Of a stretch of DNA of 64,000 nucleotides, positions 16,978-20,490 are shown piece after piece. Position 1 is the first letter of the stretch. Each line of letters opens with the position of its first letter. Where the stretch lies: the NCBI RefSeq assembly GCF_009739465.1, contig NZ_WHOM01000055.1, forward strand, positions 62,001 through 126,000, in the 5' to 3' direction. The position numbers and the translations under genes were made by a program. Under the pieces are notes generated by a model that was not told the DNA's origin, did not search any database, and saw only the letters and a program-made list of their open reading frames with translations. The DNA is from Streptomyces apocyni. GTDB lineage: Bacteria > Actinomycetota > Actinomycetes > Streptomycetales > Streptomycetaceae.

Positions 16978-18155
16978 CGGACGCCACCGCACTGCGCCGC
17001 AGGACCCAGGACCTGCTGCGCGCCCACCCTCCGGCCGACACCGACCGAGCGGACTTCCTGCGCGCCCGCTTCGACGCCGGGCTCGCCTGGGTGCACTACC
17101 CCGAAGGCCTCGGCGGCCTCGGCGCCCCGCGCGCCCTACAGGCCGTCGTCGACGCCGAGTTGGAGGCCGCGGGCGCGCCGGACAACGACCCGCGCCGGAT
17201 CGGCATCGGCCTCGGCATGGCCGCGCCCACGGTCCTCGCGTACGGCACCGAGGAGCAGAAACGGCGCTGGCTGCGGCCGCTGTGGACCGGCGACGAGGTG
17301 TGGTGCCAGCTGTTCAGCGAGCCCGGCGCGGGCTCCGACCTGGCGGCGCTCGGCACCCGGGCCATCCGGGACGGCGACAGCTGGGTCGTCAACGGGCAGA
17401 AGGTGTGGACCTCCAGCGCGCACACCGCCCGCTGGGCCATCCTCATCGCCCGCACCGACCCCGACCTGCCCAAGCACCGCGGCATCAGCTACTTCGTCTG
17501 CGATATGACCGACCCCGGTGTCCAGGTCAGGCCGCTGCGCCAGATCACCGGCGAAGCCGAGTTCAACGAGGTGTTCCTCACCGACGTCCGGATCCCGGAC
17601 ACCCACCGCCTGGGCGACGTCGGCGACGGCTGGAAGGTCGCGCAGACGACCCTGATGAACGAGCGCGTCGCGATCGGCGGCATGCGGCTGCCGCGCGAGG
17701 GCGGCATGATCGCCCCGGTCGCCGAGACCTGGCGAAGCCGCCCCGAACTACGCACCCACGACCTGCACCAGCGCCTCCTTGGCCTGTGGGTCGAGGCCGA
17801 GGTGGCCCGGCTCACCGGCGAGCGGCTGCGCCAGCAGCTCGCCCAGGGCCAGCCAGGACCCGAGGGCTCCGGCATGAAGCTGACCTTCGCCCGCCTCAAC
17901 CAGCAGATCAGCGGCCTGGAGGTGGAACTACTCGGCGATGAGGGGCTGTTGTACGACGACTGGACGATGCGCCGCCCCGAGATCGTCGACTTCACCGGCC
18001 GCGAGGCGGGCTACCGCTATCTGCGCTCCAAGGGCAACAGCATCGAAGGCGGGACCAGCGAGGTCCTGCTCAACATCGTCGCCGAGCGGGTCCTCGGCCT
18101 GCCGTCCGAGCCGCGCACCGACAAGGACATCGCCTGGAAGGACCTCGCCCGATGA
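16974..18155 (+). CDS. Acyl-CoA dehydrogenase (first of pair)
   Basis: A 393-residue FAD enzyme that oxidises an acyl-CoA. Motifs include WCQLFSEPGAGSDLA, GQKVWTSSAH and SNIEGGTSEVLLN-like NSIEGGTSEVLLNIVAERV at the C-terminus. It overlaps both the upstream reductase and the downstream dehydrogenase. Paired, differing dehydrogenases in tandem often form heteromers that act on unusual CoA esters, such as sterol side-chain degradation. The substrate here is not evident. Confidence 0.93.
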   Translation: MTDATALRRRTQDLLRAHPPADTDRADFLRARFDAGLAWVHYPEGLGGLGAPRALQAVVDAELEAAGAPDNDPRRIGIGLGMAAPTVLAYGTEEQKRRWLRPLWTGDEVWCQLFSEPGAGSDLAALGTRAIRDGDSWVVNGQKVWTSSAHTARWAILIARTDPDLPKHRGISYFVCDMTDPGVQVRPLRQITGEAEFNEVFLTDVRIPDTHRLGDVGDGWKVAQTTLMNERVAIGGMRLPREGGMIAPVAETWRSRPELRTHDLHQRLLGLWVEAEVARLTGERLRQQLAQGQPGPEGSGMKLTFARLNQQISGLEVELLGDEGLLYDDWTMRRPEIVDFTGREAGYRYLRSKGNSIEGGTSEVLLNIVAERVLGLPSEPRTDKDIAWKDLAR

Positions 18156-19276: not shown

Positions 19277-19291
19277 TCCGGTCGTTTGTGA

Positions 19292-19504
19292 CCCCGATCG
19301 AGTCTGCTCGACGTGTGCGCCGGGATCTTCCTGGTGCAGCGGGCCGGCGGCTGTGTGCTGGGCACGGACGGGCAGCCACTGCGTCTGGAGCGGTCCCTGC
19401 ACCGGGGCGCCGTCTCCTTTGTCGCGGCGGGGACCGAAGACCTCGCTCGCACACTTGCTGGACCTGGCCTTTTCCCCACCGGCAAGGTAGGCGGCCATGG
19501 CTGA
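19292..19504 (+). pseudogene. C-terminal fragment resembling an inositol monophosphatase-type phosphatase
   Basis: After a TGA at 19289 an open frame reads SLLDVCAGIFLVQRAGG, then GTDGQPLRL and FVAAGTEDLARTL. This resembles the C-terminal end of inositol monophosphatase-like enzymes, where a D-x-A-A-G helix and an AGG turn precede the last strand. No N-terminal metal-site motifs are present, so about three quarters of such an enzyme would be missing. Its stop overlaps the start of the viperin-like gene by eight bases. It could instead be a short genuine gene; family assignment is weak. Confidence 0.4.
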
Positions 19505-20411
19505 AGGCGGCACGGGACGGCCTCCGGTCGAGGCCGTGAACTTCCCTATCTGGCAGCCGTGCAACATGCGGTGCGGATTCTGCTTCGCCCGGTTCAAGGA
19601 CGTACGGGAGGAGGTCCTGCCCGCGGGCCACCTGACCGCGAGCGAAGCGCTGCGGGTCGTCGGCCTGCTGGCCGACGCGGGATTCCGGAAGATCACCTTC
19701 GCCGGAGGCGAGCCCTTCCTCTGCCCTTGGCTGGGCGACCTCCTGCGAGCGGCGCACCACGCGGGGATGACCACGGCGGTGGTCACCAACGGGTCGCTGG
19801 TGCGGGTCACCGACACACTCGCGGCCGTACTGGACTGGCTGGTGGTGAGTATCGACAGTCTCTCTCCGCAGGTGCTGACCGCACTCGGGAGGACCACGGC
19901 GGGCCGCCCGCTGTCCGAGGACACCTACCGCTCCCTGTGCGAAGACGTCCACCGGGCGGGTATCCGCCTGAAGATAAACACCGTCGTCACCAGGGCCAAT
20001 CGGCACGAGGACCTGGCCGCGTTCGTCGTCGCGACGGAGCCCCGCCGCTGGAAGATACTCCAGATGCTGCCCATCGCCGGTCAGAACGGCGGACCGGGCA
20101 ACGCCCTGTCCGTGACGGACGACGAGTTCCGGCAGTTCGTACGGCGCCACTCCTGGGTCGCCCGGTACGGCATCGACGTCGTACCGGAGAACAACGACGC
20201 CATGACCGGAAGCTACGCGATGCTCGACCCCGCGGGGCGGTTCTTCGACAACGTGCGCGGCTCGTACACGTACAGCGCCTCCATACTGAGGTGCGGTGTC
20301 CCCGCGGCGCTCCGGCAGATCACGCTCGACCGCTCCAAGTACCTCGCACGCGGCGGCCAGTACGACTGGAGTGCCCCCCTCCCGGTGCTCGCGCGCGGCG
20401 CCACGGACTGA
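19497..20411 (+). CDS. Viperin-like radical SAM enzyme (prokaryotic viperin, antiviral)
   Basis: A 304-residue radical SAM enzyme. The cluster motif CNMRCGFCFA has Cys22, Cys26 and Cys29, and the SAM motif is FAGGEPFL at 69-75. Further stretches align with viperin by eye: NGSLV near 99, LKINTVV near 158, RWKILQM, VPENNDAMTGSY, and the C-terminal LARGGQYDWS. Viperins convert a nucleoside triphosphate to its 3'-deoxy-3',4'-didehydro form, which terminates viral RNA synthesis; prokaryotic ones defend against phages. The nucleotide used here cannot be told. ATG 19497 has only a modest ribosome site (AAGGTAGG) and overlaps the phosphatase-like fragment. It stands alone, with no evident kinase partner. 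Confidence 0.87.
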   Translation: MAEGGTGRPPVEAVNFPIWQPCNMRCGFCFARFKDVREEVLPAGHLTASEALRVVGLLADAGFRKITFAGGEPFLCPWLGDLLRAAHHAGMTTAVVTNGSLVRVTDTLAAVLDWLVVSIDSLSPQVLTALGRTTAGRPLSEDTYRSLCEDVHRAGIRLKINTVVTRANRHEDLAAFVVATEPRRWKILQMLPIAGQNGGPGNALSVTDDEFRQFVRRHSWVARYGIDVVPENNDAMTGSYAMLDPAGRFFDNVRGSYTYSASILRCGVPAALRQITLDRSKYLARGGQYDWSAPLPVLARGATD

Positions 20412-20490
20412 GCCCGGAGCCGCGCAGGACGGGGCACCTCGACACCCGGTACGGTCCCCAGGTCTGGCACACCCATTACATGCGGCATAA

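Follow-up and report, generated by a model that had tools for sequence, protein, structure and literature searches.

An orphan viperin gene in Streptomyces apocyni and its probable origin in a toroid, IMPase-like phosphatase and viperin operon

Viperins are among the immune enzymes common to animals and bacteria. The window considered here is a 64,000-nucleotide stretch from the 7.03 Mb genome of Streptomyces apocyni (G000; assembly GCF_009739465.1, contig NZ_WHOM01000055.1, positions 62,001 to 126,000); all features of the window given below lie on its forward strand. A first-pass annotation, made from the letters of the window, had proposed a viperin homologue at 19497−20411 without a kinase partner, in an otherwise housekeeping neighborhood.

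The gene at 19497−20411 starts with ATG and encodes 304 aa in a frame free of internal stops, with coding-like GC contents of 0.67, 0.51 and 0.89 at codon positions 1, 2 and 3. Its product scores 276.5 bits (E 2e-82) with the prokaryotic viperin model NF038283 (viperin_w_prok), which has a cut-off of 180, and matches three PADLOC pVip models (E 6.7e-95 to 2.9e-73); the top model is a viperin-kinase fusion, yet no kinase is present at the locus. A sequence search of the PDB returns viperins or viperin-like enzymes as its top nine matches (E 5.5e-40 to 2.2e-36), with MoaA at 9.1e-8. All motifs named by the first-pass annotation are found: CxxxCxxC (C22/C26/C29), GGEP (70−73), KIN (159−161), RWK (184−186) and GGQYDW (286−291). 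The three Cys, GGEP, K159, N161, RWK, R285 and G287 are invariant in an 11-row viperin alignment that includes the window protein; the middle residue of KIN (I) and several positions within GGQYDW are variable. The K-x-N, RWK and C-terminal GGxY regions align to the solved viperins 7n7h, 6q2p, 5vsl, 6b4c and 7n7i. The predicted structure has a mean pLDDT of 84.5, with residues 32−42 poorly modeled, and fits mouse viperin with CTP at TM 0.82 and rmsd 2.2, as against TM 0.65−0.66 and rmsd 6.2 for MoaA. An enzyme of the MoaA, PqqE or tungsten-cofactor type that merely resembles viperin was also considered, as such proteins give weak matches to the window sequence (MoaA model, 71.7 bits against a cut-off of 284; tungsten maturase model, 31.8 bits against 380); however, the viperin model is far ahead, the TM values favor viperin, and phylogeny places the protein with viperins rather than with the MoaA- or tungsten-type radical SAM enzymes whose company would have refuted the first-pass annotation, so this identity was rejected as extremely improbable. 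The gene is a prokaryotic viperin, as first proposed, and the assignment is well supported by model score, sequence, tree and predicted fold.

Upstream of the viperin gene lie acyl-CoA dehydrogenases, the nearest at 18152−19276, and downstream an ABC-transporter solute-binding protein of the SBP_bac_5 family (20539−22137; both genes typed by Pfam) with permeases. These flanks agree with the first reading as to the dehydrogenases; the label "nickel" given to the transporter is not established because the SBP_bac_5 family serves peptides too. No kinase occurs among 13 neighboring genes typed by Pfam, a set that leaves out a gene near 24.0−25.0 kb, and the 304-aa frame holds no fused domain, which bears out the earlier remark that a kinase partner is missing. 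A PADLOC scan of 10 neighbors gave no sign of a defense island, with only generic ABC-ATPase matches (mad3, mad8) in two genes and helix-turn-helix matches in one.

Between the dehydrogenase and the viperin gene is the 3' stub of an IMPase-like gene (19295−19504), which retains roughly the final 70 codons and lacks the metal-site motif of the N-terminal part; its TGA stop (19502−19504) overlaps the viperin start at 19497 by 8 bp, the corresponding overlap in S. carminius being 14 bp. In the 220 bp before the viperin gene, and in the correct frame, the stub is 71% identical over 56 aa to the C-terminus of the S. carminius IMPase-like protein (E 8e-24; E 5e-20 as a whole-genome match). Stub and viperin gene occupy what appears to be an inserted stretch at approximately 19277−20473, with its left end between 19277 and 19295 and its right end between 20412 and about 20473; the latter is a reading by eye from the conserved leader of the binding-protein gene, which starts near 20473, as local alignments did not fix it. 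The gap from the dehydrogenase to the binding-protein gene is 1262 bp in the window. The binding-protein gene is present in 10 of 40 relatives, and four of these ten (G004, G006, G015, G019) have an acyl-CoA dehydrogenase directly upstream and no viperin match, at a spacing of roughly 100−170 bp by alignment ends; the other six gave no dehydrogenase match within the 1.5 kb examined. No transposase gene was seen in the inserted stretch and no convincing repeat at its ends; an imperfect 19-bp repeat (79%) at 19283−19301 and 20536−20554 was considered as a target duplication and rejected as likely chance. Insertion of a fragment and insertion of a whole unit with later deletion fit these observations equally.

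The gene to which the stub corresponds belongs to a recurring arrangement. Viperin, IMPase-like and squalene-cyclase-like toroid genes stand together in nine loci, spanning two gene orders and two phyla: S. carminius (L005), all five genomes of the genus g106 (L064, L065, L077, L078, L079), genomes G1402 (L096) and G1398 (L097), and a plasmid of the gammaproteobacterium Candidatus Thiodictyon syntrophicum (L067), where integrase genes lie nearby. The order is toroid-IMPase-viperin in L005, L067 and L097 and viperin-toroid-IMPase in the remaining six (L064, L065, L077, L078, L079, L096); in L064 and L065 there is a 4-bp overlap between adjoining genes. On the Thiodictyon plasmid the toroid gene is interrupted by an IS630 transposase gene (L067, 3979−5022). 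Two further viperins, from Kibdelosporangium aridum (L006) and Rhodococcus rhodnii NRRL B-16535 (L007, with two toroid stretches), have a toroid beside them and no IMPase match; the genes downstream of viperin in these two loci (by eye, DUF445-like and Crp-like) are very similar across families, which may reflect transfer or a mislabeled genome. No toroid match (E ≤ 1e-4) was found at 15 other viperin loci (L008−L015, G014, L068−L073), although several of them are on short contigs, where the absence is weak. In the five g106 genomes the unit adjoins the same universal-stress-type gene; this constancy is closer to that of a stable core gene than to that of a defense gene with rapid turnover, and it counts against the reading preferred below. 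Two of these five genomes also have a polyprenyl synthetase gene in the vicinity (L065, 3422−4459; L064, 3280−4320). The viperin of S. carminius is the closest found, at 67% identity to that of the window. The window genome itself yielded neither the remainder of the IMPase-like gene, its other IMPase-family and toroid proteins matching at E 3.9e-11 or weaker, nor a toroid gene of matching strength, the best match (E 5.5e-7 over 113 residues) being away from the viperin gene; with a stub for the phosphatase it holds a remnant of the unit and is not a member.

The metal-site motif DPLDGTNN (DPxDGT) is present in all seven IMPase-like proteins tested, of nine; the L005 protein scores 127.6 bits with Pfam Inositol_P, and three that were scanned fall well short of all NCBIfam equivalog cut-offs. 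Squalene-hopene cyclase domains are recognized in the toroids (Pfam SQHop_cyclase_C, 74 bits), whose scores are far below the NCBIfam cyclase cut-offs. DxDD is the catalytic motif of class II terpene cyclases; it is found in none of nine toroids tested (one of these being a partial protein). Six of the nine carry two hydrophobic C-terminal stretches, while the L006 and L007 toroids have no membrane stretch. A toroid fold model gave drimenyl diphosphate synthase as its top fold match, which is a hint only because the model is poor (pLDDT 62.5). The N-terminal region of about 150 residues has no convincing match: its PDB profile matches, mostly to designed repeat proteins and at best reaching E 1.5e-7 across 27 positions, were judged compositional, and a nudix identity found no support, with no nudix box in nine toroids and no Pfam nudix match in four N-terminal pieces. 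PADLOC returned no match for three toroids and one IMPase-like protein.

In the main tree, built from 26 viperins with no outgroup, the window protein is sister to that of S. carminius (99/98), and the pair falls within a clade of ten rows (97/96) whose nine members besides the window protein all have a toroid neighbor. This nesting argues that the loss of partners is secondary, and by its placement the window viperin is a secondary orphan rather than ancestrally solo; the housekeeping surroundings described by the first-pass annotation, correct as to the flanking genes, are thus a secondary state, as both the 3' stub of a partner gene and the toroid-linked clade show. All 12 toroid-linked viperins fall on one side of a branch with a support of only 23/0, so the tree does not establish a single origin of the three-gene unit. 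An outgroup tree again joins the window protein to S. carminius (99/97), with outgroups on very long branches that do not join together; its rooting is therefore unsure.

The gene is rare among close relatives. Only two of 295 genomes of the same genus pass the viperin cut-off, the window genome and G014; at E ≤ 1e-25 the window protein finds a match in one of 391 genomes in the order and three of 394 in the class, each count including the window genome. The viperin gene of G014 (L017 / L066) is distant (33% identity); a PfkB-type kinase gene follows it and an AIR-synthase-like gene precedes it. At five other loci (L018, L020, L024, L026, L027), Streptomyces-like radical SAM proteins, each roughly 300 aa long, score 74−93 bits with the viperin model, well below the cut-off of 180. 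No viperin relative was found in viral contigs and phage records, so no phage-borne source was seen. Where the genes occur, they occur together: of 225 genomes of the family f19, eight have a viperin and seven a toroid, all seven among the eight, with both genes in one cluster and adjacent or one gene apart. Under independence such co-occurrence would have a probability of 1.5e-12 by genome and 8e-5 by genus (4 and 3 of 68). In the eighth genome, G1341, a single frameshift, which could be a sequencing error, divides a viperin gene of the toroid-linked type (L098, about 7832−8715), and neither a toroid nor an IMPase match lies within some 8 kb of it. A Bacteroidetes viperin N-terminus (L015, 8001−8590) also lies in two pieces in different frames. 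Among 72,556 plasmid records, the sole toroid match (E ≤ 1e-10) and the sole IMPase match (E ≤ 1e-25) both come from the Thiodictyon record, beside the viperin gene; 13 plasmid records hold a viperin, and of seven neighborhoods examined three have a kinase beside it, one the three-gene unit and three neither. Distances among 11 toroids and their 11 viperins are correlated in a mirror-tree comparison (r 0.92; none of 5000 permutations as high). A phylum-wide toroid search gave no match in 396 genomes, a sample without a known positive; the same query finds relatives in the f19 search.

The window protein departs from other viperins at one position above all. Codon 17 (19545−19547) is CCT, encoding Pro, at the site of the near-universal His that follows VN(F/Y/W); this His is present in all 25 aligned viperins and in G1341 and L015 outside the alignment (27/27), as well as in mouse, Nematostella and one Trichoderma virens enzyme. 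The residue is not strictly defining of viperins, since a second, solved T. virens viperin-like enzyme (9dfn) has Phe there; an F40H variant of that enzyme, with His in place of this Phe, has been deposited in the PDB with CTP and SAM (9dfu), indicating that the position drew earlier attention and that natural change at it exists in another viperin-like enzyme. Pro17 is the sole change in the window protein at columns fixed in at least 95% of the 25 other viperins; a second change, at 88% conservation, replaces Phe with Tyr282 (Phe in 23/25). When closer relatives are compared in 14 rows, the window protein has two unique changes at fixed columns and the other rows have 0 to 7, so that the count is unremarkable and it is the site alone that stands out. 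It is possible that Pro17 is a sequencing error, as a single genome shows the change. Taken as real, it makes normal activity less certain than the first-pass annotation assumed, and to judge from the sequence the activity may be altered or failing.

A serious possibility, which stops short of probable, is that the gene is turning into a pseudogene, without its partners no longer under selection for its former activity and already showing a first sign of damage in Pro17; in a variant of this reading the enzyme has shifted to another substrate. The position of Pro17, where every other viperin compared carries His, favors decay, as does the fact that G1341, the sole other toroid-less viperin of the family survey, is split by a frameshift. 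The stub points the same way: it differs from the S. carminius gene by 0.19/0.20/0.50 at the three codon positions over 54 codons and has hardly decayed, so that the truncation looks recent relative to the split from S. carminius, and an open viperin frame is then by itself no proof of present use. For the variant, the second T. virens enzyme offers a precedent, having Phe at the site and having been crystallized with CTP and SAM both in that form and as the Phe-to-His variant. Against decay, all 304 codons are open, Pro17 is the sole change at a column with at least 95% conservation among the 25 viperins, and the count of two unique changes is not unusual; GC3 (0.89) and the codon-position differences from the S. 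carminius viperin (0.24/0.20/0.42) count likewise against decay, but both mostly reflect history before the loss.

The reading preferred here, and judged probable, is that the window holds a genuine viperin severed from a toroid/IMPase/viperin operon, of which nothing is left but the viperin gene and the phosphatase gene's 3' end, and that the activity of this viperin is most likely altered or reduced. In relatives the proposed operon combines a squalene-cyclase-like α/α-toroid, often with two C-terminal membrane helices, with an IMPase-like phosphatase and viperin. By its family the viperin is predicted to be a SAM-dependent [4Fe-4S] enzyme that removes water from a ribonucleoside triphosphate and so yields the 3'-deoxy-3',4'-didehydro nucleotide, a product that would halt phage RNA synthesis; the bacterial enzymes produce ddhCTP, ddhGTP and ddhUTP (PMC10732462). 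When the unit is complete, the phosphatase may well limit or convert this nucleotide, with the toroid perhaps a membrane-held binding or docking part. For the orphan, control by the partners would be lost and one otherwise fixed residue of the active region is changed (His to Pro at 17), which together make altered or reduced activity the most likely outcome. A bolder extension, offered tentatively and rather unlikely as a whole, is that the three genes form an undescribed system whose terpene-cyclase-like toroid, non-catalytic and held in the membrane, would sense or bind there what viperin makes or what the phosphatase turns it into; viperin would then be the maker of a signal or prodrug and not only of a chain terminator, and the window would hold an orphan altered at the very site where a fungal paralogue diverged.

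Two other accounts of the unit have to be weighed against the severed-operon reading. Instead of an intracellular defense by chain terminators, the unit could be a small nucleoside-analogue pathway in which viperin makes a ddh-NTP, the IMPase-like protein strips phosphate in the manner of Pur3, which we take to be an IMPase homologue, and the toroid binds or releases the product, the window being a broken piece. The nucleoside part of puromycin is made with the monophosphatase Pur3 and the nudix hydrolase Pur7, with homologues in the A201A and ADG clusters (PMC11641026, PMC9239236). An intact metal site in every IMPase-like protein tested and retention of the unit throughout g106 are in keeping with such a pathway; on the other side, a non-systematic look noticed no shared transporter or tailoring gene, a polyprenyl synthetase being nearby in only two of the five g106 loci, and neither nudix search of the toroids gave a match, so that this account is considered unlikely. 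Distinctly improbable is the view that viperin is a defense gene sufficient by itself, with the toroid and IMPase genes as passengers. Single viperins can shield E. coli from T7, as one assay recorded for 9 of 48 Asgard proteins (PMC11291487), and loci without kinase or toroid exist; yet the gene overlaps, the two orders in two phyla, the co-occurrence and the mirror-tree signal all speak against passengers.

Taken alone, the window is a modest result: one rare, real viperin with its partners lost and its activity in doubt. Alongside the intact S. carminius unit, however, the orphan amounts to a natural deletion experiment, with Pro17 flagging a residue of interest, and a compact unit containing a phosphatase and a membrane toroid would be a testable handle on how bacteria control a toxic nucleotide. 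In the searchable literature, at the level of titles and the beginnings of abstracts and with the main viperin-neighbor papers outside it, no link of viperin with an IMPase, a squalene or terpene cyclase or a toroid was found, and the toroid-IMPase-viperin unit is provisionally regarded as undescribed. Accessory genes named in print, in the parts of the papers available, are HicA and RelE (PMC10865869) and, for archaeal viperins, a TPR protein (PMC12988326); the kinase is known here as an accessory from the names of PADLOC models.

Compared with known systems, the window gene shares with prokaryotic viperin (pVip; NF038283; alias SAND) its family, CxxxCxxC, GGEP, K-N, RWK, the C-terminal region and the predicted fold, and differs in having no adjoining kinase, in Pro at the near-universal His 17 and in belonging to a clade tied to a toroid and mostly to an IMPase-like gene. 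The second T. virens viperin-like enzyme (9dfn) likewise has a viperin fold and a non-His residue at the Pro17 site; it is fungal, with Phe instead of Pro, and 32% identical by fold alignment. The closest counterpart is S. carminius L005 (toroid-IMPase-viperin), which provides both the nearest viperin and the nearest IMPase match, whereas all three of its genes are intact, His is retained at the Pro17 site and the flanking genes are others. Viperin systems with accessory genes (kinase, archaeal TPR protein, HicA/RelE toxins) also pair viperin with conserved neighbors, but the partners here are a squalene-cyclase-like toroid and an IMPase-like phosphatase, neither named in the available parts of those sources. 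The toroid of the unit resembles squalene-hopene and class II terpene cyclases in its toroid repeats, SQHop_cyclase_C match and fold match to drimenyl diphosphate synthase, and differs from them in lacking DxDD (9/9), in its sub-cut-off scores and in the C-terminal hydrophobic stretches of six of the nine proteins. As in the Pur7-Pur3 step of puromycin synthesis, a phosphatase stands beside an enzyme expected to make a modified NTP; in the unit, however, there is no recognized nudix enzyme, and the modifying enzyme would be a radical SAM dehydratase.
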